Source: a virus. From it: DNA of 23,005 bases. Location: IMG/VR virus record IMGVR_UViG_3300017991_000404, positions 1 to 23,005 of that record; one strand, given 5' to 3'. The position numbers and the translations under genes were made by a program. The notes beneath the pieces were generated by a model, which was not told the DNA's origin, ran no database searches, and saw only the letters and a list, made by a program, of their open reading frames with translations. Positions within the stretch are counted from its first letter, which is position 1. Each line of letters begins with the position of its first letter. This document shows positions 3,287-20,221 of this stretch, in pieces.

Positions 3287-3297
3287 GTGCTACTCTC

Positions 3298-4121: not shown

Positions 4122-4168
4122 GAATGTGAAATCGTTCCAGCTAATCTCTCTGTCCTTTCTGTTGTGAA

Positions 4169-4205: not shown

Positions 4206-4227
4206 CCCTATGACGGTCCGTGTTCGC

Positions 4228-5085: not shown

Positions 5086-5099
5086 TTTCTACTCCTTTG

Positions 5100-6046: not shown

Positions 6047-6047
6047 G

Positions 6048-7405: not shown

Positions 7406-7433
7406 GATTCAATCTCCTTTCGAGATATTTGGT

Positions 7434-7835
7434 TTATCGGACGGCTTCCAGGCCGTCAATGATCAGGCCGCGCTCCAGGCAGTCGGTCCTGAGGGCTTCG
7501 CGGAGGTCGGTGGCGGACTCGCCGTCCGGCAGCTCGATGTCGTCGAAGTGGATGGTGCCGCGCAGCATGACCTGCGCCAGGGACTCGTCGGAGGCGTCGA
7601 GGGTGACCGCATCGGGGTAGATGAACCCCTTGATCTCGTCCACGTCGCCGGTGCCGGAGGCCGACCACACTACCCAATTGTCGTTGCCGGTGTCGAAGGC
7701 CACGGGGGTGCCGACCTTCAGCTCGGTCTCGCTGGCGTCTGCAGCGAACGTCTTCACCTTCACCGTCTCCGGGGAAATTCGCGGGAACGGATCTCGGCTG
7801 GTGTCTTCATACAGCTCGTTGTCTCTCAAAGTCAT
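7434..7835 (-). CDS. Head decoration protein, lambda gpD family
   Basis: Protein of 133 residues that should trimerise on the expanded capsid and stabilise it, as lambda gpD does. Supporting features are the small size, the KVGTPVAFDTGNDNWVVW region near 40-58, the GFIYPDAVTLDAS segment around 69-81, and the VMLRGTIHFDDIELP strand near 88-103, all in the order seen in gpD-like proteins. An AAAGGAG site precedes the ATG by six bases. It is immediately upstream of the gpE-like capsid gene. Decoration proteins of this type are made in amounts equal to the shell protein, consistent with the good ribosome site. Confidence 0.88.
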   Translation of the reverse strand: MTLRDNELYEDTSRDPFPRISPETVKVKTFAADASETELKVGTPVAFDTGNDNWVVWSASGTGDVDEIKGFIYPDAVTLDASDESLAQVMLRGTIHFDDIELPDGESATDLREALRTDCLERGLIIDGLEAVR

Positions 7836-7887
7836 CTTGGACTCCTTTATTTGGTTTGAGGTTTAAGGTAGGTTACTTGGCTCCCCC

Positions 7888-8220
7888 TTAGTCGAGGGTG
7901 CCAGCGAGGTCCTCGCCCAGCTTGAAAAGGTCGTTCTCCTCCTTGGAGAGGCCCTCGACATCGAGGTCGTTTTCGTCCCCGTCGTCGGGGTCCTGGTTGG
8001 AGGCCTTCTGGAGCTTGGCGAGCTTTTCCTTCAGCTCCTTGTTCTCCTTCTCCAGCTTGGCGTCCTTCTCGGCCTTCTCCTTCTCGGTCTTCTCCAGCTC
8101 GGCCTTCTCCAGCTCGGCCTTCTCGGCCTCCCGATCCGTGGCCATCTTCTTGACCACCTCGGAAATGTCCTTCAGGCCCTTCTGGAGGTCTTCCAGTTCT
8201 TTCTTCAGCTTCTCGTCCAT
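7888..8220 (-). CDS. Nested scaffold protein (internal start in protease gene)
   Basis: A second in-frame start inside the protease gene at ATG 8220-8218 would give a 110-residue protein, MDEKLKKELEDLQKG..., consisting of the coiled-coil region only. The ATG is preceded at eight bases by a perfect AGGAGG (8234-8229) lying within the codons for Gln-Glu-Glu. Such a strong site in mid-gene is unlikely by chance at exactly the domain border. In lambda the scaffold Nu3 is made in the same way from inside the protease gene C. The product would form the internal core around which the shell assembles. Confidence 0.72.
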   Translation of the reverse strand: MDEKLKKELEDLQKGLKDISEVVKKMATDREAEKAELEKAELEKTEKEKAEKDAKLEKENKELKEKLAKLQKASNQDPDDGDENDLDVEGLSKEENDLFKLGEDLAGTLD

Positions 8221-8787
8221 TACAGGTTCCTCCTGATCTGTGCGAGCCATCGATTTGATGGCATCCCATATTTTCTGGAGGACCCCAGTGTCCTCCTTCG
8301 AACTCTCGACCTGCGCGGTGCCGAACATCGACACTCCATTCCACTCACCGTCCTGGTAGAGCTTCCGCAGTTTCTCGTCCTCGATCTTGATGACCATGCC
8401 CCAGGCCCCGGTGGCATCCACGGGGTTCCCGTCATAGTCCTTCAGATCCTTGAACCTCGGGTCGTCCTTCTGGACGATGAAGTTCTCCGCCACGAAGGCC
8501 TGCTCGGGGGAGAGCACCTTGCCGTCGTGCCTCAGGTCCAGCTCCCGGTGGTCACGCTGATACTCGTGGGCCATCTCCTTGATCACCTGAGCAGAGGCGA
8601 AATCGCCGTCGGCGTCGGGCCGCTCGGGCACGTAAACCAGGGCGGTCAGCTCCCCCTCAGCCGGGTCGCCCTTCGTCAAGGCATCAAACTGGACTGTTCC
8701 GTCCTCTTTGAAGAGGACCGGCATCCGGTTCTTGCCCCGGGGGCACAAACTGACGCAGGTGATCTTCGCCTTCTTTATCTTTCTCAT
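7888..8787 (-). CDS. XkdF-like prohead serine protease fused to scaffold tail
   Basis: Protein of 299 residues that should cleave scaffold and capsid arms during head maturation. I place the start at 8787 (MRKIKKAKITCVSL), with a GGAG eight bases upstream; a longer in-frame start at 8829 has none. Residues 1-165 match the XkdF-type phage protease pattern: a SLCPRGKNRMP opening, a VYVPERPDADGDFASAQ strand-turn, His87 in RHDG and Ser153 in GVSMFG as likely catalytic residues. Residues 190-299 form a highly charged K/E coiled coil with an acidic end, a typical scaffold. This protease-plus-scaffold layout parallels lambda C/Nu3. It begins the leftward head operon and diverges from the portal gene across about 128 nt. 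Confidence 0.85.
   Translation of the reverse strand: MRKIKKAKITCVSLCPRGKNRMPVLFKEDGTVQFDALTKGDPAEGELTALVYVPERPDADGDFASAQVIKEMAHEYQRDHRELDLRHDGKVLSPEQAFVAENFIVQKDDPRFKDLKDYDGNPVDATGAWGMVIKIEDEKLRKLYQDGEWNGVSMFGTAQVESSKEDTGVLQKIWDAIKSMARTDQEEPVMDEKLKKELEDLQKGLKDISEVVKKMATDREAEKAELEKAELEKTEKEKAEKDAKLEKENKELKEKLAKLQKASNQDPDDGDENDLDVEGLSKEENDLFKLGEDLAGTLD
8091..8120 (-). repeat. Exact 15-bp tandem repeat in scaffold coding region
   Basis: Two identical 15-bp copies (8091-8105 and 8106-8120), followed by a partial third. In the protein they encode repeated AELEK heptad-like units within the coiled coil. This is probably recent slippage inside a low-complexity scaffold and not a regulatory element. 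Confidence 0.8.
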
Positions 8788-8856
8788 GGAAATTACTCCG
8801 AAATGCAGAAAAAATCGAACCCTCTCCATGACTTATACGTATCAGAGAGAGAATGG

Positions 8857-8887
8857 TTTACACTTTTTTGAAGATTTGATGTATATA
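8857..8887 (+). promoter_or_regulatory. Candidate promoter for the portal transcript
   Basis: The AT-rich gap between the divergent protease and portal genes contains TTTACA (8857-8862), close to a -35 box. It is followed by TGTATATAG with a possible -10 at 8880-8887; spacing is 17 to 19 depending on the register. It lies upstream of a GGAGGA ribosome site (8904-8909) and the portal ATG. The match is partial. A weak TATAAG on the minus strand in the same gap could serve the leftward head operon. Confidence 0.35.
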
Positions 8888-8915
8888 GCAAAAACAAATC
8901 TCTGGAGGACCCAAA

Positions 8916-10376
8916 ATGGCCAGAAAATCTCGAAAAGCCCAGTTGGACAATATGTTTCGGCGCCTGCCCCGGCGTCACGTTCCGCTTTATGGAAACGGGA
9001 ATGAAGCCAGGCCGCTGATGGAGGTCCTGACCAAGGCCATGCCGAATGCCGAGGCGGCCAAGGAAGGGGCGTCCAGGCAGGACCCCAACGAGGGAGTGAA
9101 GTCCCCGCCCTTCAATTTTGACAATATAATCAACTTTAAGAACCACAACCCTTACCACAGCGCCTGCATCGACGTGAAGACCCAGGCCCTGATCGGCCTC
9201 GGGTTCGTCACCGAGGAACAGAAGAGGCAGCGCAAGGAGAAGAAGAAGCTGGCGGAGCAGGGCGCGATGGCGGCGCAGCAGGGACCCACAAAGCCGGGCG
9301 AGATGGGTATCGAGGCCCCCCAGGAGGCCCGGGGAGTCAACAAGGAGGACCTGTCGGAGGAGCGGCGCTCCAAGGCCGAGATGGTCCTGGACCCCCTCTG
9401 CATCGACTCCTTCCAGGCCGTCATGGGGCAGGTGGGCGAGGACTTCCAGCAGGTCGGGAACGGCTACATCGAGGTTGTCCGGAACAATGAAGGCTCCATT
9501 GTGGGTCTCCACCACCTCCCGGCAGGCCATGTCCAGATCGTGATTGAGGACAACTTCTACAACAGCCATTTCCAGATCCTCAGCAGCTCCAGCGGGATGG
9601 CAAGCACATACAGGGCCTTCGCCAGGTTCGGAGACAAAGAGGACTTCTTGAAGCGAAAGCCGGAGCTGGCCGAAAAGAGCCGGATCTCCGAGGTCATCCA
9701 CTTCAAGGACCCGTCCTCGCAGGACCGGTGGTATGGGGTCCCGAAATGGCTGGCGTCCGTGGCCGCCATCGAGCTGTTCCAGTGCCTGCACCAGCACGAC
9801 TACGACTTCTACCTGAACAGGGGTGTTCCGGAGTTCATGCTCTTCTTGCTGGGCGCCAAACTCAACGACGACGATTGGGACAAGCTGATGGACTCCATGG
9901 AGGCGCACATCGGCTTGGGCAACTCGTCCAAGAGCCTGGCTCTGAACATCGCCGACAAGGGCCTGACAATCCAACTGGAAAAACTCGCCCTGGGCGAAAG
10001 CTACATGGACGGGTTCGAGGACCGGGTCGATACCTTGAGCCTGGAGATCGTGTCTGCCCACAGGGTCCCGCCGCTGCTGGCAGGCATCCAGATTTCCGGG
10101 AAGCTCGGGGCGGCCAATGAGATCGTATCGGCAACCAAGGCCTTCCAGGCGTTCGTGGTCGGGCCACAGCAGAAGATTTTCGAAACCACGCTGGGCAACA
10201 CGCTGGGCAACCCAGACCTCAACGGGTCGCTGGCCCTCACCCCCAACGACTTCGAGCTGCGGAAGATCACCGAGGAGCTGGAGGTCGAGGAGCTTGATAC
10301 GGTGTCTCGCATGAGGCAGGACTTCAACGCCCCGCAAAATCAGGGCAGGGACCCCAAGGAAGGGCTGAAGGACTGA
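8916..10376 (+). CDS. Portal protein (PBSX/P2-type)
   Basis: Protein of 486 residues that should form the dodecameric DNA gate at the head-tail vertex. Typical portal features are the NPYHSACIDVKTQALIGLG segment near 78-96, the GNGYIEVVRNNEGSIVGL wing strand near 181-198, the W-YGVPKWLASVAA region near 272-284, and the NRGVPEFMLFL stretch near 301-311. An HRVPPLLAGIQ-like motif follows in the last third. A KEKKKLAEQGAMAAQQ low-complexity insert lies around 107-122. GGAGGA precedes the ATG. Unlike all neighbouring head genes it is on the plus strand, so it needs its own promoter. The 1-nt stop/start overlap links it to the next gene. Confidence 0.92.
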   Translation: MARKSRKAQLDNMFRRLPRRHVPLYGNGNEARPLMEVLTKAMPNAEAAKEGASRQDPNEGVKSPPFNFDNIINFKNHNPYHSACIDVKTQALIGLGFVTEEQKRQRKEKKKLAEQGAMAAQQGPTKPGEMGIEAPQEARGVNKEDLSEERRSKAEMVLDPLCIDSFQAVMGQVGEDFQQVGNGYIEVVRNNEGSIVGLHHLPAGHVQIVIEDNFYNSHFQILSSSSGMASTYRAFARFGDKEDFLKRKPELAEKSRISEVIHFKDPSSQDRWYGVPKWLASVAAIELFQCLHQHDYDFYLNRGVPEFMLFLLGAKLNDDDWDKLMDSMEAHIGLGNSSKSLALNIADKGLTIQLEKLALGESYMDGFEDRVDTLSLEIVSAHRVPPLLAGIQISGKLGAANEIVSATKAFQAFVVGPQQKIFETTLGNTLGNPDLNGSLALTPNDFELRKITEELEVEELDTVSRMRQDFNAPQNQGRDPKEGLKD

Positions 10377-11143
10377 TGGGGTCAAGATCAAAGATAGAGA
10401 AGCTGATCCGTCACCTGGCCCTCAAGGAGCAGGGAGGGGCATGGAGCAAAGTAAAAGGCAGCCAGCGCCCAAAGAAGTCAAAGAGTCCAGCTACTTCGAT
10501 TTCCTTCCTGATAGCGTTCCTCATAAAGCAGCTATCGTGGGAACACTGCAACAATGCAGAGGTGCGAGAGATCATTGCGAGCAGGAAACCCAGACGATCA
10601 GGCCCCTCGTCTAACTTACGCATCCCTCACTATTGGATCCAATACTACCATAACGGATACAAAGGCGGGTTCAAGAAGGGCACAGGTCCTTGGCTCTTTT
10701 TCCCAAGGAAGAACAAAAACGGCAAATCAGCCAGAGTAGATCCTCGCAGGCCAAGTAAGGCAAGGAACGAGATTTACAAGAAGGATGTTAAGCGTTTTGG
10801 AAAGCTGTCCCCAGGCAGGGCCAAACAGCTGAAAAGCATGGGAGCGGTATGGGCCTGGAGAAGGAAGGGCTGGCGTGGCGATCCCTTCATGGACAATGCC
10901 ATCATGGACTTCTGGCGCAACGTCGACCAATACCTGCAGGAATACGTAACGGACATAATGTATCTGGACTTCACTGCGGTGGCAAAAAACGCGCTCAACG
11001 GTCGATTCGGCACGACCGTGAGGGCGGAGTCAGTAAGTCCAGAGGATGCGGCCATCCTGTTCCACTTCTATGATCCCATATTCAAAGAGATACGGGGCCA
11101 GACAGACGCCTACCGTATGGGCAAGCGAACGCCTAAAAAATAG
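10376..11143 (+). CDS. Portal-coupled protein of unknown function, possibly structural
   Basis: Protein of 255 residues whose ATG overlaps the portal stop by one base (TGATG), so it is probably translated by ribosomes leaving the portal gene. It is very basic over its first 160 residues. It contains the aromatic HYWIQYYHNGYKGGFKKG segment (about 85-102) and a RRKGWRGDPFMDNAIMDFW segment (about 162-180). The latter faintly resembles the PFM-PAL end of HK97 gp10-like tail completion proteins. One line sampled within it (10501-10560) has 28 G/C of 60, lower than the portal gene. A neck, completion or DNA-contact protein is plausible, but I do not recognise the family. It ends 12 nt before the convergent RuvC-like gene. 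Confidence 0.8.
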   Translation: MGSRSKIEKLIRHLALKEQGGAWSKVKGSQRPKKSKSPATSISFLIAFLIKQLSWEHCNNAEVREIIASRKPRRSGPSSNLRIPHYWIQYYHNGYKGGFKKGTGPWLFFPRKNKNGKSARVDPRRPSKARNEIYKKDVKRFGKLSPGRAKQLKSMGAVWAWRRKGWRGDPFMDNAIMDFWRNVDQYLQEYVTDIMYLDFTAVAKNALNGRFGTTVRAESVSPEDAAILFHFYDPIFKEIRGQTDAYRMGKRTPKK

Positions 11144-11155
11144 ACCACCAGGACT

Positions 11156-11683
11156 CTAGCGTTTCCGCTTTTCTCCCCACGAAGCAAGTCCGATGGCGTC
11201 GATCAGGTGAGTCCACTTCCCCGGCGGGAAAGACACGTCAATGTCCACATCCTTTGGGACAACCCTGGCGCTGTTCGAATGGTAGGACCAACCCACAGCA
11301 TTCAGGATTCTTTTGTGCTTGACGATCTTGGGAACAGAGCCCTTCCAGGTGTTTGGCAGGGGGATCCGGATGTCCTGGCAGAACTCGGACGCCGTTCCGG
11401 CGACAGCCCCCGCCACCTGGGCCAGCTTGATGAGGTCCTTGGGCCTGGCACGACCTTGCTGATAAATCTGCTGGCCCTCGACCACCACCCTCTGGATGTC
11501 AGGAAACCTGCCAAAGAGCTTCCTCACGGCCTTGCAGACCTCCCACGCCATGGCGGCCACGGCGGCCTCTTGCGTGAGCTTAGCGTCGATCCTAGCCAGC
11601 TCTAAGCCACGGCATCTGGAGTTCTCGACCACGGCGAAGGCCGTGTTGTGCAGATCGGGGTCGCAACCAAGAACAAACATCAT
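11156..11683 (-). CDS. RuvC-like Holliday junction resolvase
   Basis: Protein of 175 residues with an RNase H-like fold expected to cut branched DNA before packaging or during recombination. Visible catalytic motifs are Asp8 in LGCDPDLHNTAFAVVE, Glu69 in RVVVEGQQIY, and His159/Asp162 in HLIDAIGLASWG. These fit the first, second and last acidic positions of RuvC. The start is chosen at 11683, where ATGATG overlaps the stop of the GT2 gene as ATGA; the open frame further upstream is a shadow of that gene. It is the last gene of the long leftward operon and meets the plus-strand structural gene tail to tail. Confidence 0.85.
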   Translation of the reverse strand: MMFVLGCDPDLHNTAFAVVENSRCRGLELARIDAKLTQEAAVAAMAWEVCKAVRKLFGRFPDIQRVVVEGQQIYQQGRARPKDLIKLAQVAGAVAGTASEFCQDIRIPLPNTWKGSVPKIVKHKRILNAVGWSYHSNSARVVPKDVDIDVSFPPGKWTHLIDAIGLASWGEKRKR

Positions 11684-12471
11684 GCGCCTCCCTGGTCTTT
11701 GGTGAACGGCTGGTAGACCCGGAGGTTGGCGAGGCCCACCCATTTCTGCAACACAGTCAAATTGGGGTCCGGCCTGAACTTCTTGGGGCGGTGCCCCACG
11801 CCGATCCCCTCCCTCCCGGGCATGCCCTTGATGCCGATCATGAGGTCCCTCTCGGGCTCGAAGATGTCGAAGGTGCCTGCCCCCGTCATGGCCACCTTCC
11901 AGAAGAACGCGTCGAGACCTTTGTTGTTCGTTTCCAGGCAATGCGAGGCGGCCTGGAAGAGGATGGGCAGCAGGTCAGCACTCATCCCGGTCGAGCACAG
12001 GGCCGACCCTCGATTGCGGAAGACCCGGTAGCTTCTGGAGGGAAGATGGTAATACTTCTGCCACACCGTTCCCACGGCCTCTGCCTCCTGCAGCCGGTCC
12101 CACATATCCTCCAGGTAGCCGGACAGGTAGCAGTCGTCGTCCTCCCAGATCAGGATCTTGTCCGCAGATACGTAATGGATGCCGTTGATGATGTTGCTGG
12201 CCAGACTCTGAGGGCCGTATGGGTATGCGCTCTTCTGGCGCACGTGATACATCGTGATGCCGAGGTTCGCCAGCTCGCTTTGGGACTGCTCTGCCACAGC
12301 CTTGGCGGTCGCCTGGGTTCTGCCATCATCCACGATGACCCACTCCACTTGTCCTCCTGCCTCAGGGCTCAGGAAGGACTGCCTCTTCATGTGCCTGAAG
12401 GCCATCTTCAAAGCATCGTAGCGGTCACCTGTGGGGGTGATGATGCTTAACTTTTTAGAAGGTTTCCCCAT
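11680..12471 (-). CDS. GT2-like glycosyltransferase
   Basis: Protein of 263 residues with a GT-A fold glycosyltransferase pattern. It opens with KLSIITPTGDRYDALKMAF, the nucleotide-sugar binding strand and helix. VEWVIVDDGR follows near 42-51, then SLASNIINGIHYVSADKILIWEDDDCYLSGY, where the DDD supplies the metal-binding DxD. Start at 12471 is chosen because it gives the natural beginning of the fold; an AAGGA site stands about ten bases upstream. The gene overlaps the GT-D gene by 25 nt. The donor sugar and acceptor cannot be read from sequence. It shares the LA-N-x3-G-x2-YVS...DD layout with the GT2 at 19331-20059, so the two may be related. Confidence 0.82.
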   Translation of the reverse strand: MGKPSKKLSIITPTGDRYDALKMAFRHMKRQSFLSPEAGGQVEWVIVDDGRTQATAKAVAEQSQSELANLGITMYHVRQKSAYPYGPQSLASNIINGIHYVSADKILIWEDDDCYLSGYLEDMWDRLQEAEAVGTVWQKYYHLPSRSYRVFRNRGSALCSTGMSADLLPILFQAASHCLETNNKGLDAFFWKVAMTGAGTFDIFEPERDLMIGIKGMPGREGIGVGHRPKKFRPDPNLTVLQKWVGLANLRVYQPFTKDQGGA

Positions 12472-13139
12472 TCCTCTGCTGTCCTTTCCTTGTGGTAGGC
12501 CCTGTTGAACTTGCCCACATACGGATCCCACAGGGCGCCCACATCAAGTAAACTCACATTATGTGGCTTGATCCTATGTTTGGTGAAAATGTCATGAATA
12601 AGGACGGATGACGCCAATGACGCCGAGATGCTGAACGTGTCCCACCCCTTGCGGATATACCTGACAATGCCTTCGATGATGCGCTTCCTGGCGATGAAGC
12701 AATTCAATTCTGGAACGCAAACGAACCCGCAGGAGCTATCGGCCACAAAAGGCAGATCCCGTAACCACCGAGGTCCTACCACCACGGACTCGCGGTCGCG
12801 CAAGTAGTTGGCCATCATCCACGCGTTGCCTGCCCTGGAAAGGTGTTCGAACAGCCTGGAAGGGGCGGGATTGTCAAAGGCCTTGTATTTCAAAAGATGC
12901 TTTGCAGAATCTCCAAAGACGGACTCAATCGTCTCTGCCATCAGTCCGTAGGTGACACCTGGCACAGGCCTCTTGGCGGCCCGGATCAGTGCCGTCCGCA
13001 GCTCCTCAGTATACTCGTGGCGATCACAATTGGCAGGGCCATGACCCAACATGCACGCGAACTCTCCGTCCCCGAACCTAGAAATTGAAAAGGTTTCCCT
13101 ATTTAGAAGCTTCTGTATCAGGCCTCGCAGATCACGCAT
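12447..13139 (-). CDS. GT-D (DUF1792) family glycosyltransferase
   Basis: Protein of 230 residues. The SISRFGDGEFACM motif at about 18-30 contains the DxE (Asp24-Gly-Glu26) that defines the GT-D fold, known from DUF1792 proteins acting on Ser-rich adhesin glycans in streptococci. The length agrees with that family, and the C-terminal SLLDVGALWDPYVGK segment fits its closing strand. It starts eight bases before the end of the preceding DUF616-type gene, with AAGGAAG about ten bases upstream. One line sampled in its 3' half (12541-12600) has only 20 G/C of 60, far below its neighbours, which suggests acquisition from elsewhere. The sugar it transfers is unknown. Confidence 0.75.
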   Translation of the reverse strand: MRDLRGLIQKLLNRETFSISRFGDGEFACMLGHGPANCDRHEYTEELRTALIRAAKRPVPGVTYGLMAETIESVFGDSAKHLLKYKAFDNPAPSRLFEHLSRAGNAWMMANYLRDRESVVVGPRWLRDLPFVADSSCGFVCVPELNCFIARKRIIEGIVRYIRKGWDTFSISASLASSVLIHDIFTKHRIKPHNVSLLDVGALWDPYVGKFNRAYHKERTAEEWGNLLKS

Positions 13140-13845
13140 GATTTACGAACTTCCTTCCTTTTTTCTCGCAGAGACTAATTCGCATCTTCTTGGTCTCTTT
13201 GCCCCCGTGCGCCCAAAACTTGGCGTAGGGGTTGTTCCGATAATGTCCGTAGAGCAGGCCCTGCTTTACGTCAGAAAGCCAGAGAGCAAAGTCTACGGAC
13301 ATCTGGTCCCGGGGGTGGCCTCCTTCTTGCAGAAGCTCCCACCACTTCTTGGCGAACTCCCGAACGCAAAAAGACCCTCCCCGAAAGGCCATCAGCCCGG
13401 TGGTAGTGAGGTGGTCCTGGAAGATTTTCATCACCCTCCCGAATACTTGCAGTTGCCTGTCTAGAAGCGCCTTGTCCCACCCGTGACGACCGTGAAGGAC
13501 CTCCGCCTCCTCGTGGATAGAGTCCCTATGGGGGTGCGCCATGGCCAGGACATCGTAGTCCTCCAGGTATGGGTAGACGATGTCCTCGGGCTTTTTCTTG
13601 AGCTGGAACGTCCCGTCAACCCACAAGACGTCATCGTGGGGATAATGGATGGGGGCAAGGATCTTGCGCTGCCGGGCAGGCCACCTGGTGCTCCGCCACC
13701 CCGGGTCCCTCAACTGCTTCACTTCCCACACGGTGGACTTCAGCTCAGGCCTGTTGGTGTAGCAGATATACTCTGCTGCGTCGGACACCTCAAGAGGCTC
13801 CAGGAGCGGATCCTTGTCTCCTATATGTGCGGTAAGGACCTTCAT
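13132..13845 (-). CDS. DUF616 (TOD1/MUCI70-like) glycosyltransferase, copy 2
   Basis: Protein of 237 residues starting MKVLTAHIGDKDP, with GAGGAG a few bases before the ATG and an ATGA overlap with the previous gene. Motifs in order are EYICYTNRP (26-33), RQRKILAPIHYP (58-69), LWVDGTF (74-80, a metal/nucleotide site), AMAHPHRDSIHEEAE (101-115), and RDQMSVDFALW (179-189). This order is that of DUF616-type putative glycosyltransferases. The RDQ...LW element is shared with the next gene upstream, so the two look like diverged duplicates. No signal peptide or membrane helix is seen, so it should act in the cytoplasm. Substrates are unknown. Confidence 0.72.
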   Translation of the reverse strand: MKVLTAHIGDKDPLLEPLEVSDAAEYICYTNRPELKSTVWEVKQLRDPGWRSTRWPARQRKILAPIHYPHDDVLWVDGTFQLKKKPEDIVYPYLEDYDVLAMAHPHRDSIHEEAEVLHGRHGWDKALLDRQLQVFGRVMKIFQDHLTTTGLMAFRGGSFCVREFAKKWWELLQEGGHPRDQMSVDFALWLSDVKQGLLYGHYRNNPYAKFWAHGGKETKKMRISLCEKKGRKFVNHA

Positions 13846-14552
13846 TTTCTCCTCGTCTTTGGCACGTAAGTGAATCCCCATCCCCGGTCGAAATGGTAGT
13901 TGACGTCCCAGCTCACTACATCAAGGCCCCTGGTGTTTATGATCTCCCACAAGGACAGGTCCAGGGTGAGCTGGTCCCGTTCAAGCTCCAAGTGGAGGAA
14001 GTTGTCCCACCACCGCTCATTGAAGGCCCTCACCGCATCGTTGTGCCTGCGGAACAGGACCCCACCAATGTGCATTGGGACCTCCATGTAGGAGAAATTG
14101 CGATCCTCCCACATGCACACGGCACGGCATGCCTCCTCGTGGTTTAGGAGCCTCCGCTCCGCATGGGTCAGGGCAGATATTTCCTCGCGAGGGTTCTGCC
14201 TGCGAGGATGCCGAAACAGGCCCATATCGCGGCGGTCTATGAGGTAGGCGTCAAGAGCCTTCTTGGGATCATCCGGGATGAAAGCAGAATCCACATAGAC
14301 GTGCCTGTCTCCCTCCTCGAAGGGGAAGAAGACCTCAGGCATCATCTTGGCCCGGCGAGATTCCCGAATGAAGTCGATCCGCTCCAAGGGACCCGAACCG
14401 GCCTTGAGGTATTGCGTCTCCAAAAGCACCCAGCCATTGGACCCGCCAGTGTAGAACTCGTCCACAATGGCAATGCCGTCGATGTCCCGTTTCTCCAGGA
14501 TGGGAAGCTGGGGCTGGTATCCTCCCAGGTTGGCTGTGATGAGGTAGTCCAT
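13842..14552 (-). CDS. DUF616-like glycosyltransferase, copy 1
   Basis: Protein of 236 residues starting MDYLITANLGG. The start at 14552 overlaps the methyltransferase stop by one base (TAATG) and has AGAGGA seven bases upstream; the longer open frame is a shadow of that gene. Motifs are SRRAKMMP (65-72), HVYVDSAF (84-91), GLFRHPRRQN (111-120), HIGGVLFRRH (161-170) and RDQLTLDLSLW (192-202). The RHP plus RDQ combination is typical of DUF616-type putative glycosyltransferases. The protein lacks export signals. With copy 2 it forms a tandem pair, which suggests consecutive sugar additions or different donors. Confidence 0.7.
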   Translation of the reverse strand: MDYLITANLGGYQPQLPILEKRDIDGIAIVDEFYTGGSNGWVLLETQYLKAGSGPLERIDFIRESRRAKMMPEVFFPFEEGDRHVYVDSAFIPDDPKKALDAYLIDRRDMGLFRHPRRQNPREEISALTHAERRLLNHEEACRAVCMWEDRNFSYMEVPMHIGGVLFRRHNDAVRAFNERWWDNFLHLELERDQLTLDLSLWEIINTRGLDVVSWDVNYHFDRGWGFTYVPKTRRK

Positions 14553-15154
14553 TAACAGATCCTCTCCAGGGTCAAGAGGCCGTGGCTGAAGGCAACGTGG
14601 CGCTTGATAACCCACTCCGGATGCACAACCATGAACTCGTCTATGGCCAGCCGGATCCCGTGGACCTTTGGGTTGAACTCGGGGGTGACGTGCGGGTCCT
14701 CGATCCAGGTGCCCTTCTCGCCATCCGCACCCCATGTCCCGAAGGTGATGGTGTCGTGGAAGACGATCCACTTCTTGGTCTTCCCCGCAAAGATTTCCAG
14801 CTCGGAGGCAACCTGATGATAGTGGTGCAGGGAATCCACGAAGAGCAGGTCGTGCTCCGGCACGTCCTCCAAGGAGACCTTGGTGGTGTCTGCCTGCGTG
14901 ACCTTCCACTTGTCCCCGATGAGAGGCATGAGGGCCTTGGCTCCCTTGGTGATGACCAGATCGTAACTGTAGAGCTTGCCCTCGCACCAGGCCAAGGCGG
15001 TAGAGGAGGCGCCGTGCTTGATGCCCAGCTCAACCACATTGTCAGAACACAAAGCCAAATCGCGAAGATAGTCCAAATGCCTCGCAGTTGCCGTGCGCCC
15101 TTTGGCAAACTTCGACAGGTGGGCCTTGACGGCCTCTTCGTTCTTGATCTTCAT
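14552..15154 (-). CDS. Class I SAM-dependent methyltransferase (Methyltransf_24-like)
   Basis: Protein of 200 residues with a Rossmann-type SAM-binding site: VVELGIKHGASSTALAW at 40-56 holds the acidic residue and glycine loop. DLLFVDSLHHYHQV (102-115) and WIVFHDT (129-135) follow, the order seen in Methyltransf_24 and cephalosporin-hydroxylase-like enzymes, which often methylate sugars or small molecules. It lacks the DPPY/NPPY motif of DNA adenine methyltransferases and the Pro-Cys motif of cytosine-5 enzymes. A sugar O-methyltransferase fits the neighbouring glycosyltransferases. Its ATG overlaps the preceding stop as ATGA. The acceptor is inferred from context only. Confidence 0.75.
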   Translation of the reverse strand: MKIKNEEAVKAHLSKFAKGRTATARHLDYLRDLALCSDNVVELGIKHGASSTALAWCEGKLYSYDLVITKGAKALMPLIGDKWKVTQADTTKVSLEDVPEHDLLFVDSLHHYHQVASELEIFAGKTKKWIVFHDTITFGTWGADGEKGTWIEDPHVTPEFNPKVHGIRLAIDEFMVVHPEWVIKRHVAFSHGLLTLERIC

Positions 15155-15519
15155 TGCAAAAACCTTTCCATCTCCATATACGGGAGGGACTGAAGGGAGG
15201 ATATGGGAGACAGGTTCACAAGTTCAACGCCCAATTCCTTGAACTCTTTATGCATTCTCCTGAATCCGTCATCTATCTTAGGCACCTGTCTGTTCAGGTG
15301 ATGGTCAACGAGGTCCACCCCAATCAGGCCGATCTTCTTAAAGCCGTGCATGTAGGCCAGCCCGACCGCAGCGAACGGAGAGGTCACGCAGCTTGGGACC
15401 GTTAACGGGCCTTTATACTTGAAAGGAGCGCCCGGCCAGGGCCAGGGATTCTGCAGGGCATACTTCCTGACACTAATCTTGCAAATGAACGGGAAGCATT
15501 CTGGATCCATGATCTTCAT
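15151..15519 (-). pseudogene. C-terminal part of split DUF115/GT42-like protein
   Basis: Downstream part of the interrupted gene, 122 residues from the first ATG after the TAA (15519). It has no ribosome site, so re-initiation would be weak. It carries the conserved-looking core: VTSPFAAVGLAYMHGFKKIGL, then IGVDLVDHHL, a long helix and VELVNLSPISSLQSLP. That sequence of elements parallels GT42 sialyltransferases (TSG...A-ALGYKEIYLSGIDF...LCPNS) and DUF115 proteins. The ends overlap correctly with neighbours (ATGA with the methyltransferase), so the gene seems otherwise intact. It may be a dead remnant, a readthrough product or a sequencing error. Confidence 0.6.
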
Positions 15520-15540
15520 CCACTGATCAGTATAGGGTGT

Positions 15541-15741
15541 TTAAATTCCATCCCAACCCCAAGCGTTGCACCTGATGGTTTCTTTCCTGCTCTCAGTGAA
15601 TCTCCTAGGATGGTCCAGGAGGACAACGCTGTCCCTGTTTTGGGGAGCGTCATTTACCCCCAACAGGAAGGTGTCGTCTGGAAAGCCAGTTAGCTGCATT
15701 GCGCTTTCCCCAAGACCGCATACTATAGCTCGGTTCATCAT
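15541..15741 (-). CDS. N-terminal part of split DUF115/GT42-like protein
   Basis: Reading frame of 66 residues starting MMNRAIVCGLGESAMQL, whose ATG overlaps the diphosphohydrolase stop as ATGATGA. The opening is a nucleotide-binding beta strand and glycine loop like the start of GT42 and DUF115 proteins (IIAGNGPS-like). It then reads FLLGVNDAP and VVLLDHPRRF, and stops at TAA 15543-15541 after WGWDGI. Directly beyond the TAA the same frame continues with TPYTDQWMKIMDPE and runs to 15151. One nonsense codon therefore separates two halves of what looks like one protein of about 196 residues. Confidence 0.6.
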   Translation of the reverse strand: MMNRAIVCGLGESAMQLTGFPDDTFLLGVNDAPQNRDSVVLLDHPRRFTESRKETIRCNAWGWDGI

Positions 15742-16124
15742 GATCTTTTCTTCTTCCTCTCCGTGAGCCACTCGCGCTCTTGCAAGTAGAGACGATTGTC
15801 CCGGCCCTTGTTTTTGTCGATGAACTCTACCAGCATGGCGATGTTGGCGGCGGCATGGTAGATGTGAGGCAGCCCAGACTCCTGGTCTATATCCTCCCCT
15901 TCCCACCACGCCGTCAGGTGGCGCATGCAGGACGCGTAGGGCTGCAACCAGGGGAAGCCTTTTTGCCAGTTGAAGTCACCGTATTTGTCGGCCCCGGCAC
16001 CGAAGACCTTGGCCAGGGCTTTGAACATGGAAACGGGAACCAACTCCATCCGGTCTTTCCCGTCGTCAAACCTGGCTGCCTCGTGTGGGTTGTTCACGTC
16101 ATGATTGTAAGGTGATTTACTCAT
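15738..16124 (-). CDS. dATP/dGTP diphosphohydrolase-like protein (DUF5664)
   Basis: Protein of 128 residues. The motifs ARFDDGKDRMELVP (17-30), FGAGADKYGDFNWQKG (41-56), and RHLTAWWEGEDIDQESGLPHIYHAA are a near-textbook DUF5664 pattern, named dATP/dGTP diphosphohydrolase in phage annotations. The enzyme would hydrolyse purine dNTPs and so shape the nucleotide pool during phage replication. The His and acidic residues in the last motif likely bind metal. It overlaps the polymerase stop by eight bases, which couples it to replication. Comparable enzymes in some phages remove normal nucleotides to favour a modified one, but nothing here proves that. Confidence 0.8.
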   Translation of the reverse strand: MSKSPYNHDVNNPHEAARFDDGKDRMELVPVSMFKALAKVFGAGADKYGDFNWQKGFPWLQPYASCMRHLTAWWEGEDIDQESGLPHIYHAAANIAMLVEFIDKNKGRDNRLYLQEREWLTERKKKRS

Positions 16125-18270
16125 CTTCTTCTGGCTCCCAAACTAAAAGATTTCCCTCATCGTCCCTGACCTCTTCCGCCGCCTTGGACCACCTGCGCAT
16201 CAGGGCTGGCTCGGCCTCGATGGGGACGTCTGGAAACACTTCCTTCATTCCATCGACCATCAACTCCGCCACCCGGTCCGCCCGGGCACCCGCCAGCAAG
16301 TCATCCGGTATCTGAAGCATGATCTCATCGTGGATGAATGCCCATGGCTTGCACCCATAAAGAAGACTACCCGGAGTTTCGCACTCGCGCACCACTTTTA
16401 TGATGGCTTTTTTCGCCCCCTCGGCGGACGGGGACTGCATGCAGGCTCCGTTGGCGCAGGCGCAATAGCTGCAACACGCCCTCCACATGCCCATGGGCGT
16501 TTCGTAGCAGTAGAGGCTCGGGTCGCTTTGGTCCTGGCAATCCTGGTTGATCCAGATGAAATAGTCAACCATCTCCGGGTAGGTTCCCAGCCAAAGCTCC
16601 TTCAACTGGGCCGCCGTTCCCTCGTCCACCGCCACCCCGTAGACTGCAGCAGCGAATTTCACGAACGTGGCCGGGCCAAGGCCCCCGGGATACCCAAGGC
16701 CAGTCGGCTTGGCGAAGGTCCGCCAGTGCTTCCAGAACTTCCTGTCACTTTGATTCTCAGAAGTCTTCAGGGCAAAGAACTTGTCGTAAACCTCGTCGGC
16801 GTCCAGGCCTTTGGCCGTCTGGGCAAAGTCTTCATCGAGATGAAGAGCAAGCTGGCTGCCAAGGAACGAGTGCAGGTCATACCCGGCCAGGACCTTGTCC
16901 CGGTGAACAGAGTAGCCAAACAGGGAGAACGTCTTCTGGGCCACGCTGACAAGCTCCAGGGCGCTGTAGTCCACAGAAGCGAATACGTGCCCCGGGTCAG
17001 GGATGAAGCAGTCCCTGGCCCTGGGATCAACCTGCTGGATGTTGGTGGAGGGGTAGAGGCTGCCGCCGTAGGACGATGTCCTCCCGGTCTCCTTCAGGAT
17101 GTCGAATTCTGGGTGGACTCGGTCGGCATCCAGCTTTGGCAGCTCCGAATTCACCAGCCTTGCAATCTCCTGGCGGTCCTTGTATTCCTGGAGGATTTTG
17201 TTGAAGGGGGCCAGGACCTCCAGGACCGCTCCCTCCGCGCTGATGGCCCCGGACGGCGTCTTGGTGGGAGGGATCTGGTGCTCCTCACAAACCGCCAAGA
17301 TGACTTCCGCCAGGGCCTTCGTGTTCACCGAGGGCTTCTTGGGGCTCGTGAACTTGATCCCGTTCTCCTGCAGATTTTCCCGGTAGGGCTCCCAGTCGAA
17401 GGTGTCATACTGGTCGGCAGGCAGGTCAGGAAACACCTCCGCCAGCTTTTTCTTCATGTTCTTGTAGGGCCTGGGCGGAGTCGCCGGGCGGAGGATGCCT
17501 GACCGGATCAGGCGAGGAAGGTTTTCGGGGAGCATCCTCTCCCCCAGCTCCTTGGCCTTGCTGTCCCGCAACTCCCGGTCTATCCTGACGCCGTTTATCG
17601 TCATGACCCGCAAGCAGAAGTCGGCAAAGACCTGGAGTTCCTCCGTGTTGCAACTACCCGGGCCTCGGGGGGCCGACCGGCGCAACTCCTGCTCTTCGAA
17701 GACCCGCAGGGTGCCAATGGCGTCATCGAGGGCGTAGTCTCTGGCCTCGGTCGGGTAGTCCTCCGCCGCCTTCCCTTCCAGCTCATGATACCGGAGGCGC
17801 CAGATGTCGTCCCCCTCCTTGAACTCTGACCGGTCGACCCCAGTGTATCTCTTCTCCAAGGAGGAGAGCGTATAGCTGACCCGGCGGGATCCGCCATCGG
17901 GCTGGGGCAGGTCCTGGATGTGGCCGAACTGCCCGAGATTCAGGAGCTTCTCTCGGATTTGGGTATCGTGGACAAGCCCCTTCCCCAGCTTGTCGTAGAT
18001 CAAGGGGCGGAGGTGCTCCCAGGTGGAGATGAGGCAGGTGAGGTCGTAGGCCATGTTGTGCCCGATCAGGGCCACATCGTCGTTACCCAAAAGACCTTCC
18101 AAGATGGGCAGGGTCCTGTCGTCGCAGTGGGCGAGCAGATCAGACTCTATCCTATTCGGATTGATCCTCGTGGCCAGGCTGATGCAAATCACCTTGGGTG
18201 CAATCGCTCCCTCCCCCATCAGGAAGGTTTCCGTGTCCAGCGATACCCAGGTCTTGTCTTTCGTAGTCAT
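16117..18270 (-). CDS. Family A DNA polymerase with 3'-5' exonuclease
   Basis: Replicative polymerase of 717 residues. The exonuclease has SLDTET (Asp12, Glu14), HNMAYD (Asp76) and Y179-x3-D183. The polymerase has motif A VDYSALE (Asp434, Glu439), motif B R517-TFA-K521-PTGLGYPGG and motif C AFIHDEIML (His647, Asp648). There is no 5'-3' exonuclease domain, as usual for phage enzymes. The residue equivalent to E. coli Phe762 is Leu525, and the expected Tyr four residues further on is Gly. The ATG at 18270 has AGAGGA eight bases upstream; a TTG one codon earlier is possible. The start lies inside a small zinc-ribbon gene, overlapping it by 119 nt, and the end overlaps the diphosphohydrolase gene. 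Confidence 0.95.
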   Translation of the reverse strand: MTTKDKTWVSLDTETFLMGEGAIAPKVICISLATRINPNRIESDLLAHCDDRTLPILEGLLGNDDVALIGHNMAYDLTCLISTWEHLRPLIYDKLGKGLVHDTQIREKLLNLGQFGHIQDLPQPDGGSRRVSYTLSSLEKRYTGVDRSEFKEGDDIWRLRYHELEGKAAEDYPTEARDYALDDAIGTLRVFEEQELRRSAPRGPGSCNTEELQVFADFCLRVMTINGVRIDRELRDSKAKELGERMLPENLPRLIRSGILRPATPPRPYKNMKKKLAEVFPDLPADQYDTFDWEPYRENLQENGIKFTSPKKPSVNTKALAEVILAVCEEHQIPPTKTPSGAISAEGAVLEVLAPFNKILQEYKDRQEIARLVNSELPKLDADRVHPEFDILKETGRTSSYGGSLYPSTNIQQVDPRARDCFIPDPGHVFASVDYSALELVSVAQKTFSLFGYSVHRDKVLAGYDLHSFLGSQLALHLDEDFAQTAKGLDADEVYDKFFALKTSENQSDRKFWKHWRTFAKPTGLGYPGGLGPATFVKFAAAVYGVAVDEGTAAQLKELWLGTYPEMVDYFIWINQDCQDQSDPSLYCYETPMGMWRACCSYCACANGACMQSPSAEGAKKAIIKVVRECETPGSLLYGCKPWAFIHDEIMLQIPDDLLAGARADRVAELMVDGMKEVFPDVPIEAEPALMRRWSKAAEEVRDDEGNLLVWEPEEDE

Positions 18271-18406
18271 CAAGCAGGTCCTCTCGAACCAGGGCGTTCT
18301 CAGAATAGCACATAGGGCAGGTGCAAGAACGTATCCTCCGATTCATCTGTGCCCTGTAGCGGCAATCAACGCAATGATACATCACTCTTTGTTGGACGCG
18401 CCTCAT
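18152..18406 (-). CDS. Small zinc-ribbon protein overlapping the polymerase start
   Basis: Open frame of 84 residues with its ATG overlapping the FmdB-like gene stop as ATGA (18406-18403). The first 40 residues hold a zinc-ribbon: HCVDC (Cys12, Cys15) and SCTCPMC (Cys28, Cys30, Cys33). The remaining part (after about residue 45) runs through the polymerase start in another frame and looks like shadow sequence (GGGSDCTQGDLHQPGHEDQSE), so only the N-terminal domain is likely to be functional. Its position suggests a role tied to replication, perhaps protein or nucleic-acid binding. I do not recognise a family. Confidence 0.6.
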   Translation of the reverse strand: MRRVQQRVMYHCVDCRYRAQMNRRIRSCTCPMCYSENALVREDLLDDYERQDLGIAGHGNLPDGGGSDCTQGDLHQPGHEDQSE

Positions 18407-18633
18407 TCTTGCCTTTGCCCCCCGGTCTTCTTCTTGGCATACTCTTGGAAGTATTTGTCTTTCTTCTTGATAATCTCTCCCGGGAACCCGTCTCCGAAGT
18501 GGACTGGGGTGGAATGAAAGATCCTCTTCAGCTCGCCTCCGCACGGGCATGTATCAGGGCGCTTCTCGTTCATGCCAAGCTGGACCGAAAGAGGCTTGCC
18601 ACAGTCCTTGCATTTGAAATCGTAGATAGGCAT
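18403..18633 (-). CDS. FmdB-like zinc ribbon protein
   Basis: Protein of 76 residues starting MPIYDFKCKDCGKP, the classic opening of FmdB-type zinc ribbon domains. Cys8/Cys11 and Cys29/Cys31 (CPCGG) form the metal site. The C-terminal half has a PVHFGDGFPGEIIKKKDKYF stretch that is also usual in this family. A strong GGAGG site lies five bases before the ATG. It follows the nested stem-loop and precedes the second zinc ribbon and the polymerase, so its expression may be controlled by that hairpin. FmdB-like proteins have been proposed as transcription regulators, but their role in phages is unclear. Confidence 0.8.
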   Translation of the reverse strand: MPIYDFKCKDCGKPLSVQLGMNEKRPDTCPCGGELKRIFHSTPVHFGDGFPGEIIKKKDKYFQEYAKKKTGGQRQE

Positions 18634-18657
18634 GTTTACCTCCAGAAAGTAAAAGAA

Positions 18658-18716
18658 AAGAGGCCCCTCCAGCGGTCTCAGCAACTTGTTGCGACCAGAT
18701 CCTTTTGGGGCCTCTT
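18658..18716 (-). terminator. Nested stem-loop with U-rich tail between ssDNA-binding gene and FmdB gene
   Basis: A perfect 10-bp inverted repeat (18658-18667 with 18707-18716, AAGAGGCCCC / GGGGCCTCTT) encloses a 39-base loop. Inside the loop a second hairpin forms (GGTC 18674-18677 with GACC 18693-18696; GCAAC 18681-18685 with GTTGC 18688-18692). On the minus-strand transcript the outer stem is followed by TTTTCTTTTACTTT. This fits an intrinsic terminator or attenuator, or the body of a structured small RNA. It fills most of the 103-nt gap. Confidence 0.7.
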
Positions 18717-18736
18717 GGGCTTCAGGTTCGTGCCTG

Positions 18737-19273
18737 TCAGTCCTTGGACTGGTAAGCCGAGGCCATCTGCTTCATTTCCTCCTTCGTGAGCAGCTTGGTC
18801 AGCTCCTCCTCCGTGAACCGCTCCTCGATCTCCTCCTCGGTGAGGACCCGCTTGTAGGACTTGCGGGTGTATTCCTTGCCGGAATCCTTGCCCACCCGGG
18901 TGATGTTGTCGACCTCGACGATGAGGCCAGCGAAGGGCTGATCATCCGAGGTCACGTAGTCACACGCCTCCTCGTCGATCTCATCCTGGGAATCCGCACC
19001 GGACAGGGTGTAGACCATGGACTTGAAGTTGGGCAGGAAGCTGTCGTGCCGGGCCATCTGCAGGTCGGCGAACTCCTCCCCGGGATAGTGGCCCTGGTCA
19101 CCCTCGCTGGCGATGACCTCCAGGCACTTCTTCTGGACGGCCACGAAGTCCTCGCCCTTGCGAGAGGTGCCGACCTTGATGCTCTGGATGAAGACCACAT
19201 ACCGGCCCGGCTTGGCATAGTTGGACTGCATGGACATTTTGGTTTGACCGATACCCTTGAACAATTTACCCAT
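18737..19273 (-). CDS. Putative ssDNA-binding / replication accessory protein
   Basis: Protein of 178 residues beginning MGKLFKGIGQTKM. The GRYVVFIQSIKVGTSRKGEDFVAVQKKCLEV strands (23-53), a HYPGEEFADLQM loop and GLIVEVDNITR (115-125) look like an OB-type beta barrel. The last 45 residues are charged (ERFTEEELTKLLTKEEMKQ), as in many phage ssDNA-binding proteins with an acidic partner-binding tail. It is placed between the helicase and the polymerase, a normal site for such a protein. AAAGGAG lies seven bases before the ATG, and a good promoter precedes it. Strong expression signals fit a protein needed in large amounts. Family assignment is by fold appearance and context only. Confidence 0.6.
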   Translation of the reverse strand: MGKLFKGIGQTKMSMQSNYAKPGRYVVFIQSIKVGTSRKGEDFVAVQKKCLEVIASEGDQGHYPGEEFADLQMARHDSFLPNFKSMVYTLSGADSQDEIDEEACDYVTSDDQPFAGLIVEVDNITRVGKDSGKEYTRKSYKRVLTEEEIEERFTEEELTKLLTKEEMKQMASAYQSKD

Positions 19274-19314
19274 AGTTTCGCTCCTTTCAGTTTTTGCGAC
19301 TTGGGTTCACTCCT

Positions 19315-19343
19315 ATTATACGGCGGAAACCTACTCTTGTCCC
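19315..19343 (-). promoter_or_regulatory. Sigma-70-like promoter before ssDNA-binding gene
   Basis: On the minus strand a perfect TATAAT (19320-19315) follows GGGACA (19343-19338, four of six matches to the -35 consensus) with a spacer of exactly 17. It overlaps the end of the upstream glycosyltransferase gene and would start a transcript about 35 bases before the ssDNA-binding gene ATG. It is the best promoter match I found in the window and likely drives the polymerase-to-RuvC operon. Confidence 0.7.
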
Positions 19344-20059
19344 CTTCTTTTTTCAAAAAGTTCATGTTTTTCTGTCATGACCGAAGGAACCCCCTCCTGG
19401 CGCTCGAAAATGCCCGGGTCCTCCGCCCTGCCGATAATGCTGATTGCCCCGAGGGCGTTCAGCTCCCGGCACCTTCGATCCATCTCCGGCTCGCATTGGC
19501 TGATGTCGATGCCGTCCTTGGTGGTGGCGGTGCTGAAAAGGCCAGTGCAGTAGTGGAAATCCCACCGCATGAGGTGGGCGCAGTCAGAGTAGTAGTAATC
19601 CAGCTTGGGATCCAGCCAGAGGTAGGGACCTCGCTTGGCAGCGGCCTTCCGGTGCTTTTCGCTGACGATGTATTTCACCATTGACACGTTGCTGAAATTC
19701 TCCACCAGCATCTCGGCGTCATCCTCGATGGAATATGGCCTGCGCATGATCATGTCGTCCTGAAGATACAGGATCAGGTTGGGGGCATGGCGGTGGGAGA
19801 CGTATTGAAGCCCCGCATTCAGGTTATTCGCCAACAGCGGCTTGCCGGGAGTATAGAAATACTCGATGTCCTGGGACTCCAAGAAAGCCTCGGTCTCTTC
19901 CCGGAGCAGGTGCCCTTGTTCCTGGATGGCGGTGACCCATGAAACCCTGCATTCTCCCCAATCCATGTTAGTGCGGACCGATCCTATCATCCGCTTCAGG
20001 GCCTCGAATCTCTCTGGATACCGATTCCAGGCAGTGGTCAAAACGCAGATACTGATCAT
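19331..20059 (-). CDS. GT2-like glycosyltransferase downstream of the helicase
   Basis: Protein of 242 residues starting MISICVLTTAWNRYPERFEAL, a GT-A nucleotide-sugar opening. It continues with LLANNLNAGLQYVSHRHAPNLILYLQDDMIM, with the DD metal site, and YYSDCAHLMRWDFHYCTG in the acceptor half. The ATG at 20059 has an almost ideal Shine-Dalgarno AAGGAGGTGA at 20073-20064. The same frame stays open upstream to ATGs at 20221 and 20263, and the extra acidic residues (AEEAEFDLSEF...) do not resemble a GT domain. They may be a separate leader or fused domain. It shares layout with the GT2 at 11680-12471. Its place between helicase and promoter sets it apart from the main glycosyl block. Confidence 0.78.
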   Translation of the reverse strand: MISICVLTTAWNRYPERFEALKRMIGSVRTNMDWGECRVSWVTAIQEQGHLLREETEAFLESQDIEYFYTPGKPLLANNLNAGLQYVSHRHAPNLILYLQDDMIMRRPYSIEDDAEMLVENFSNVSMVKYIVSEKHRKAAAKRGPYLWLDPKLDYYYSDCAHLMRWDFHYCTGLFSTATTKDGIDISQCEPEMDRRCRELNALGAISIIGRAEDPGIFERQEGVPSVMTEKHELFEKRRGQE

Positions 20060-20221
20060 CCCCTCACCTCCTTGGCGATCCTGCTCCTCGGCGTCCTGGT
20101 CCTCCAAAGGCAAGAAATACTTGTCAACATCCCAGTCGTAGTATCCGCCCTTTCTGATGCCCTGCCGGAACTCGCTGAGGTCAAACTCTGCCTCTTCAGC
20201 TCGCACCAGATTCCAGTCCAT
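20060..20221 (-). other. In-frame acidic leader upstream of the GT2 gene
   Basis: 54 codons, MDWNLVRAEEAEFDLSEF... to ...EEQDRQGGEG, continuous with the GT2 frame and with no stop. It is rich in Asp, Glu and Tyr (KGGYYDWDVDKYFLP). It starts inside the 3' end of the helicase gene by 26 nt. Either a small separate protein once ended here and fused with the GT, or a longer 296-residue GT is made alongside the short form. Confidence 0.45.

Follow-up and report, generated by a model that had tools for sequence, protein, structure and literature searches.

Organization of the Locus

The window, which is the whole 23,005-nucleotide stretch of DNA that was analyzed, comes from an uncultured tailed phage and contains six overlapping minus-strand genes at 11680-15741. 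The predicted products are a DUF115/GT42-like protein, a methyltransferase (MT), two TOD1/MUCI70 proteins (DUF616a and DUF616b), a GT-D-like protein and a GT2 protein. The features of the region are as follows.

8916..10376, plus strand: portal protein gene
11156..11680, minus strand: RuvC-like resolvase, flanking the cassette downstream
11680..12471, minus strand: predicted GT2 glycosyltransferase, 263 aa (PF00535, EDDD motif)
12447..13139, minus strand: GT-D-like putative glycosyltransferase, 230 aa (RFGDGE motif and homologs; its own model is weak)
13132..13845, minus strand: DUF616b, TOD1/MUCI70-like predicted glycosyltransferase, 237 aa (PF04765)
13842..14552, minus strand: DUF616a, TOD1/MUCI70-like predicted glycosyltransferase, 236 aa (alignment and the PF04765 match of a homolog)
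14552..15154, minus strand: MT, predicted SAM-dependent methyltransferase (Methyltransf_24; CmcI/TylF-like), 200 aa (Pfam; present in all cassette-bearing relatives)
15151..15741, minus strand: DUF115/GT42-like protein (phrog_4603/MptE-Maf superfamily), with an N-terminal part at 15541-15741 and a C-terminal part, starting with ATG, at 15151-15519
15541-15543, minus strand: in-frame TAA splitting DUF115, the frame being otherwise open over the remaining length
15738..16124, minus strand: dATP/dGTP diphosphohydrolase (dNTPase), flanking the cassette upstream

On the upstream side, the overlaps are 4 nucleotides between the dNTPase and DUF115 genes, 4 between DUF115 and MT, and 1 between MT and DUF616a; on the downstream side, they are 4 nucleotides between DUF616a and DUF616b, 8 between DUF616b and GT-D, 25 between GT-D and GT2, and 1 between GT2 and RuvC. 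The open reading frames and their translations thus confirm the description in the first-pass annotation of six overlapping genes, with an internal TAA, between the diphosphohydrolase and RuvC-like genes. The same annotation regarded the block as coupled with the replication genes, and the overlapping glycosyltransferase/methyltransferase block is real, but the implied functional tie to replication is not supported, as unrelated phages keep the block beside portal or capsid genes (see below). In the window, the block and the portal gene are 1.3 kb apart, on opposite strands and with the RuvC-like gene between them. Because of this proximity, "replication operon" is a misleading label; the block sits where the replication genes meet the head genes and not inside the former. 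The DUF115 homologs in five related contigs are uninterrupted, and the DUF115 step has probably been lost or impaired in the window genome by the TAA, unless this codon is a sequence error.

Assignment of Enzyme Families

The GT2 protein matches PF00535 at 4e-9, over the cut-off, and its EDDD (DXD-type) motif is invariant in the GT2 alignment. MT matches Methyltransf_24 at 2.7e-6, DUF616b matches TOD1_MUCI70 (PF04765) at 2.9e-5, over the Pfam cut-off, and the homolog of DUF616a in a related phage matches PF04765 at 3.3e-14; TOD1/MUCI70 is present in 5 of 5 cassette-bearing records and in 0 of 10 other relatives. The classes of GT2, MT, DUF616a, and DUF616b are assigned from these sequence matches. 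The GT-D protein of the window has no Pfam match, and its putative GT-D-like class rests on an RxGDGE motif and on its homologs. The top PDB match of the GT-D profile is the DUF1792 GT-D enzyme 4phr/4pfx, a weak match (E = 0.22) on the SxxRFGDGE motif, and the homolog in contig L148 matches the GT-D-like family PF22882 at 1.4e-4 and the GT-D family PF08759 at 8.8e-4, both below the curated cut-off. The structure model of the window protein (pLDDT 68.7) is too weak alone for a fold match; glutamate racemase, which gave its top structural matches, was dismissed as meaningless, and TarA/TagA appear lower among the matches with a probability of about 0.6.

The window copy of DUF115 being interrupted, the intact homolog from L002 was modeled (pLDDT 91.7), and the model resembles the GT42 sialyltransferases CstII and CstI and the Maf glycosyltransferase (Foldseek E 4.7e-4, prob 1.00). 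By this predicted structure, the DUF115 family has the CstII/Maf fold. The enzyme classes, taken together with the DUF115 homolog model and the GT-D motif and homologs, support the earlier suggestion that the set could assemble a short glycan and cap it, the cap being a methyl group.

Conservation among Related Phages

The block is kept in the same order and in the same slot in phages that are only about 50% identical, which argues that the gene set is more than a chance assembly, and it is lacking in a sister lineage whose polymerase is of the same type. In the MT tree, the cassette MTs of the two phage groups cluster as a single clade (100/98) to the exclusion of other phage MTs, and within the window lineage the branching follows that of the polymerase tree; these observations point to one module that has long been kept. 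The content of the module does vary. The four-gene cassette of L002 (contig 3300035698_010279) has neither DUF616a nor GT-D, and the DUF616-DUF616-GT-D segments of L001 and L006 are 90-96% identical, as opposed to only 51-67% for DUF115, MT, and RuvC, a sequence pattern indicating that this segment has been exchanged between the two. Besides family fragments and frame artefacts, no gene outside the six was common to all cassette-bearing phages and missing elsewhere. Isolated phages gave no blastn match to the region, and bacterial genomes scanned with the polymerase for a host or prophage gave no match.

The Block beside Head Genes in Unrelated Phages

The order DUF115-MT-(GT-D/DUF616)-GT2 recurs in contigs L114, L118, L121, and L125 and partly in L116, L117, L124, and L148, none of which has a polymerase, portal, or capsid gene recognizably homologous to that of the window. 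The block of L118 begins about 0.3 kb past the major capsid gene, that of L114 and L121 comes after the portal gene and a Pfam-Collagen gene, and in L148 DUF616-GT-D lies about 1.9 kb from the portal gene. The order in L042 is TerL-MCP-portal-collagen-like-DUF115-GT2-DUF616-neck-major tail-tape measure, so that in three lineages the block is preceded by portal and by a collagen-like virion gene. The major capsid and head-tail adaptor genes of L030 enclose GT2-DUF616, and in L034 the major capsid gene is upstream of GT2-DUF616. The block is within the head cluster in L114, L118, L121, L042, and L030. Among contigs of 15 kb or longer in which a portal or capsid gene is recognizable, and with near-duplicates removed, GT2 lies no more than 3 kb from such a gene in 7 of 9 (2.65 expected, p = 0.002). 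The cassette genes of L124 (about 22 kb), G036 (7.7 kb), and G043 (11 kb) are far from head genes. In 24 of 43 loci, no more than 1 kb separates DUF115 from GT2, and in L030, L034, and L053 the two share a single open frame.

Proposed Function and Alternatives

Of the three possible targets named in the first-pass annotation (DNA, virion, and host surface), the virion is now the favored one, and the block probably encodes a set of cytosolic enzymes with which the phage glycosylates a virion protein. Decoration of the virion with a short methylated glycan is the most likely function because the same set, in the same order, adjoins capsid genes in unrelated phages. The GT2 and DUF115/GT42-like enzymes would act on the same acceptor, since their genes are neighbors or fused in many phages, and the DUF616 and GT-D enzymes, whose genes vary most between relatives, would for that reason be the chain extenders; MT, judging from its family, would O-methylate a sugar as a cap. 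The host would supply the sugar donors, since no nucleotide-sugar enzyme is among the 25 families listed for the 45 non-cassette proteins scanned. Carried on the particle, the glycan could alter adsorption, stability, or shielding. In mycobacteriophages, a C-terminal extension of the capsid or tail tube protein has been described as the glycan site; alignments inspected by eye revealed no such extension of the capsid or major tail proteins relative to cassette-free relatives, and this candidate site was dropped. No collagen-like protein was found in the incomplete contigs of the window clade.

It is unlikely that the enzymes remodel cell-surface or exported glycans of the infected host, e.g. 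to prevent superinfection or to aid release. Members of the GT2, DUF115/GT42, and CmcI/TylF-type methyltransferase families do act in the synthesis of surface polysaccharides or small-molecule glycosides, and the DUF616 gene of cyanophage S-SCSM1 lies within a large nucleotide-sugar/glycosyltransferase island. However, the block encodes no flippase, polymerase, or polyprenyl-phosphate glycosyltransferase, no cassette enzyme has a membrane-like segment, and a surface-conversion locus would not be expected to recur next to the capsid, portal, and neck genes of unrelated phages.

It is rather improbable that the cassette glycosylates a modified base and so shields the phage DNA from nucleases, even though phage DNA glycosylation is well known, e.g. 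in T4, and the genes are coupled to those for a polymerase and the dATP/dGTP diphosphohydrolase. No hydroxymethylase, thymidylate-synthase-like, TET/JBP, or hypermodification enzyme is among the families listed for the 45 non-cassette proteins of the window and contigs G001, G002, and G003, a result that counts against such enzymes without excluding them, as the contigs are incomplete. Protected DNA would be expected to show relaxed avoidance of restriction sites, but 6-base palindromes are still avoided in cassette-bearing phages (observed/expected 0.50-0.75, compared with 0.97-1.00 for letter-shuffled control words), to an extent within the range of cassette-free relatives (0.20-0.86). Furthermore, the sister lineage has the same polymerase type and no cassette, and the unrelated phages keep the cassette with head genes, not replication genes. 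Finally, an accumulation of unrelated glyco-genes at a permissive site, with no single pathway and with some genes decaying, might account for the TAA in the window DUF115, the reduced L002 cassette, and the L001/L006 exchange, but it is very improbable in view of the same order in unrelated phages, the DUF115-GT2 frames, and the agreement of the MT and polymerase trees within the clade.

Comparison with Known Systems

Phage virion glycosylation is known experimentally mainly from mycobacteriophages. The cluster O mycobacteriophages Corndog and Firecracker have one O-methyltransferase and three glycosyltransferases in tandem between the portal and capsid-maturation protease genes (PMC4351075), and a later account reports, citing Freeman 2023, that products of the Corndog-type block modify the capsid and tail tube (PMC11600133). 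The window block is similar in combining phage-encoded tandem glycosyltransferases with a putative sugar O-methyltransferase. In contrast, it has six genes at the replication/head boundary in its clade, whereas the Corndog block has no DUF115, DUF616, or GT-D and its methyltransferase is TylF/Methyltransf_24. The cassette profiles do not match Firecracker gp34-gp36, the glycosyltransferase sets being non-homologous, and the block is therefore not classed as a Corndog-type member; by analogy, it would work like Corndog-type virion glycosylation without being a homolog.

The cultured phage PAJU2 has a DUF115-GT-like-MT trio (gp10-gp12) inside its head-tail operon, between the head closure and tail terminator genes, and Eowyn carries the same kind of trio. 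Like the cassette, both have a methyltransferase gene near a DUF115 gene of the same family. The PAJU2 DUF115 is 56% identical to that of L042, and the PAJU2 trio comes after the portal gene and gp07, a relative of the collagen-like proteins encoded by L114, L121, and L045. The trios differ in that their methyltransferase is Methyltransf_23 and that DUF616, GT-D, and GT2 are lacking; their middle gene has no Pfam match, but its sequence looks like another glycosyltransferase family. In Cellulophaga phage phi18:1, a Methyltransf_24 gene adjoins a TOD1/MUCI70 (DUF616) glycosyltransferase gene (gp40-gp41) between the head morphogenesis and protease/capsid genes, but there are only two genes and the cassette MT profile does not recognize the methyltransferase. 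A bacterial parallel is dGT1 of Fap1 serine-rich-repeat O-glycosylation, in which a GT-D domain and then a GT-A domain carry out successive steps on one protein, Fap1 (PMC5063993). Both dGT1 domains are weak PDB matches of cassette profiles, but dGT1 is a fused bacterial enzyme with an exported adhesin as its substrate and has no close sequence identity to the cassette.

According to the first-pass annotation, no phage system with this exact set is known to have been described. This stands insofar as tblastn with GT-D, GT2, and MT queries (from the window, L002, L121, and L042) gave no match among 50,697 phage records, and the full DUF115-MT-GT-D/DUF616-GT2 module has so far been seen only in uncultured phages; it is qualified by the non-homologous Corndog set and by the PAJU2 and Eowyn trios. 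We tentatively propose that this portable, unrecognized module may give many unrelated phages a methylated glycan coat on their virion fibers or capsids, and that its isolated cousins are the DUF115 enzymes encoded by PAJU2, Eowyn, and perhaps P1 (PmgP). If so, virion glycosylation would be widespread and not a mycobacteriophage specialty, and the swappable elongation genes would give phages changeable sugar coats. With a conserved cassette near head genes in unrelated phages and a cultured phage of the DUF115 branch, PAJU2, it is directly testable how common sugar-coated phages are. The cassette further points to a possible role of the "alpha-2,3-sialyltransferase" family phrog_4603, relatives of which were found by tblastn in 60 phage records, including P1-type phages (PmgP).

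The six-gene block and its enzymes

The tail and head genes occupy 14-11143 of the window, a 23,005-base IMG/VR virus record, and the replication genes 11156-23003. Six genes of the second part, at 11680-15741 on the minus strand, form a block of glycosyltransferases (GTs) and a methyltransferase (MT) flanked as follows.

11156-11680, RuvC, one flank of the six-gene block on the minus strand
15738-16124, dATP/dGTP diphosphohydrolase (dNTPase), the other flank

In order of transcription the block encodes a DUF115/GT42-like protein, the MT, DUF616a, DUF616b, a GT-D-like protein, and a GT2, adjacent genes overlapping by 1 to 25 nt. The GT2, MT, and both DUF616 proteins were assigned by Pfam, through either the window protein itself or a close homologue. 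DUF115 was assigned by structure prediction for an intact homologue, whose fold matches the sialyltransferases CstII and CstI as well as Maf, and also by phrog_4603. That family (“alpha-2,3-sialyltransferase”) has relatives in 60 phage records and adjoins structural genes in Pseudomonas phage PAJU2. The GT-D-like protein carries an RFGDGE motif; its top PDB profile match, DUF1792, is weak (E = 0.22), and a homologue matches GT-D models at 1e-4 to 1e-3. The DUF115 frame is open apart from a single in-frame TAA (15541-15543), and its homologues are uninterrupted in five contigs; the stop may be an error in the sequence or a recent lesion, or it may divide the product into two chains. An ATG lies seven codons past the TAA, in the C-terminal part, without a clear ribosome-binding site.

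Conservation and exchange within the lineage

The closest match to the window's polymerase (16117-18273) in the phage collection, a Caudoviricetes record from Manatee Spring, is just 26% identical; the window's lineage as a whole is essentially uncultured. Relatives with polymerases 51-57% identical to that of the window (contigs L001/L005, L015/L020, L006/L019, and L004) have all six genes at the same position, and L002, of the same group, has four of them. In the sister phages L008 and L018 the dNTPase directly adjoins RuvC, and the block is also absent from L009, L011-L014, L016, and L017. The polymerase tree places the cassette-bearing phages in one group (84/88), the MT tree branches in the same way, and GT2, MT, and DUF115 are found in all of these phages. 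L001 and L006 share 90-96% identity over the DUF616-DUF616-GT-D stretch, as against 51-67% over DUF115, MT, and RuvC, and L015 agrees with L001 up to GT-D and with L006 from GT2 onward; the contrast and the switch indicate that the putative elongation genes have been exchanged as one piece.

L015/L020, which is from another sample and is identical to L001 and L006 over these respective parts, arose either by natural recombination or as an assembly chimera, with the joint at the GT-D/GT2 boundary. The 255-aa product encoded at 10376-11143, immediately after the portal gene, is diverging fast, has no family, and is found in relatives both with and without the cassette. In one cassette-free relative, G009 (L110), 6-base palindromes are very strongly avoided (observed/expected 0.20).

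The block in other phages

Profile scans found DUF115-MT-DUF616-GT2 in contigs L114 and L125, DUF115-MT-x-GT-D-DUF616-GT2 in L118 and L121, and partial sets in L116, L117, L124, and L148, none of which has a polymerase, portal, or capsid recognised by the window-clade profiles. The cassette MTs of the window lineage and of these unrelated phages fall into a single clade (100/98), separate from the remaining phage MTs. Outside the window clade, DUF115 lies within 1 kb of the GT2 family in 24 of 43 loci and shares one frame with GT2 in three; a fourth possible case, L046, was too weak to be counted. Among nine contigs that are 15 kb or longer and have a recognisable portal or capsid, near-identical contigs having been removed, GT2 is within 3 kb of one of these genes in seven (2.65 expected, p = 0.002, the lineages not being fully independent); exceptions to this proximity are L124, G036, and G043. 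The block begins about 0.3 kb past the major capsid gene in L118, the order in L121 and L114 is portal, collagen-like protein, small gene, DUF115, MT and so on, and that in L042 is TerL, MCP, portal, collagen-like, small gene, DUF115, GT2, DUF616, neck, major tail, tape measure.

Among 50,697 phage records, tblastn detected no relatives of the MT, GT-D, or GT2. In PAJU2, a DUF115 gene whose product is 56% identical to that of L042 precedes genes for a GT-like protein of 275 aa and a methyltransferase, the three lying between the head-closure and tail-terminator genes; phage Eowyn has the same trio, and Cellulophaga phi18:1 combines an MT with a DUF616 gene within its head cluster. PAJU2 also encodes, after the portal, a relative (gp07) of the collagen-like proteins seen in L114, L121, and L045. 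P1 PmgP is a distant member of DUF115, and its scoring as non-essential in a knock-down screen (PMC10695390) is as expected for an accessory enzyme.

Proposed mechanism and acceptor

Enzyme classes (a putative one for the GT-D-like protein), gene order, linkage, and conservation are established for the block. A virion protein is the most likely acceptor, given that several lineages have the block together with their head genes. Nucleotide sugars would be supplied by the host, GT2 and DUF115 would share one acceptor, DUF616 and GT-D would extend the chain, and the MT would cap it. The action of a GT-D and then a GT-A on one protein in dGT1 (PMC5063993) is compatible with this, by a likeness that rests on weak profile matches. 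In the window clade, capsid and tail-tube alignments revealed no tail linked to the cassette and so pinpoint no acceptor there.

Modification of DNA bases by the cassette enzymes is counted against by two arguments, both weak: 45 non-cassette proteins of the window and three relatives (incomplete contigs) have no base-hydroxylating or hypermodifying enzyme among their listed families, and palindrome avoidance, an indirect measure, is not relaxed in cassette-bearing phages. Modification of host surface glycans is disfavoured by the position of the block and by its lack of membrane components, its enzymes having no membrane-like segments.

Freeman (2023) reportedly found glycosylation mainly among actinobacteriophages. 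Glycosylation of a virion protein by the block would work like the Corndog-type system of mycobacteriophages (PMC4351075, PMC11600133). The two sets of GTs lack homology, however, and the block is therefore not classed as a member of that type.

A collagen-like virion gene lies at most 0.6 kb upstream of DUF115 in L039, L042, L045, L114, and L121, with a weak CBM_5_12 match in L121 and L114, and its product is a candidate acceptor in these five contigs. In L151-L155, L158, and L159, GPTGYTG-type collagen-like proteins are encoded 2.4-4 kb away from distant GT-D-like genes. Three or four consecutive DUF616 domains occur per contig in L136, L138, and L140-L142, and long open frames in L025 and L026 have two to three tandem matches to this GT2-domain family.
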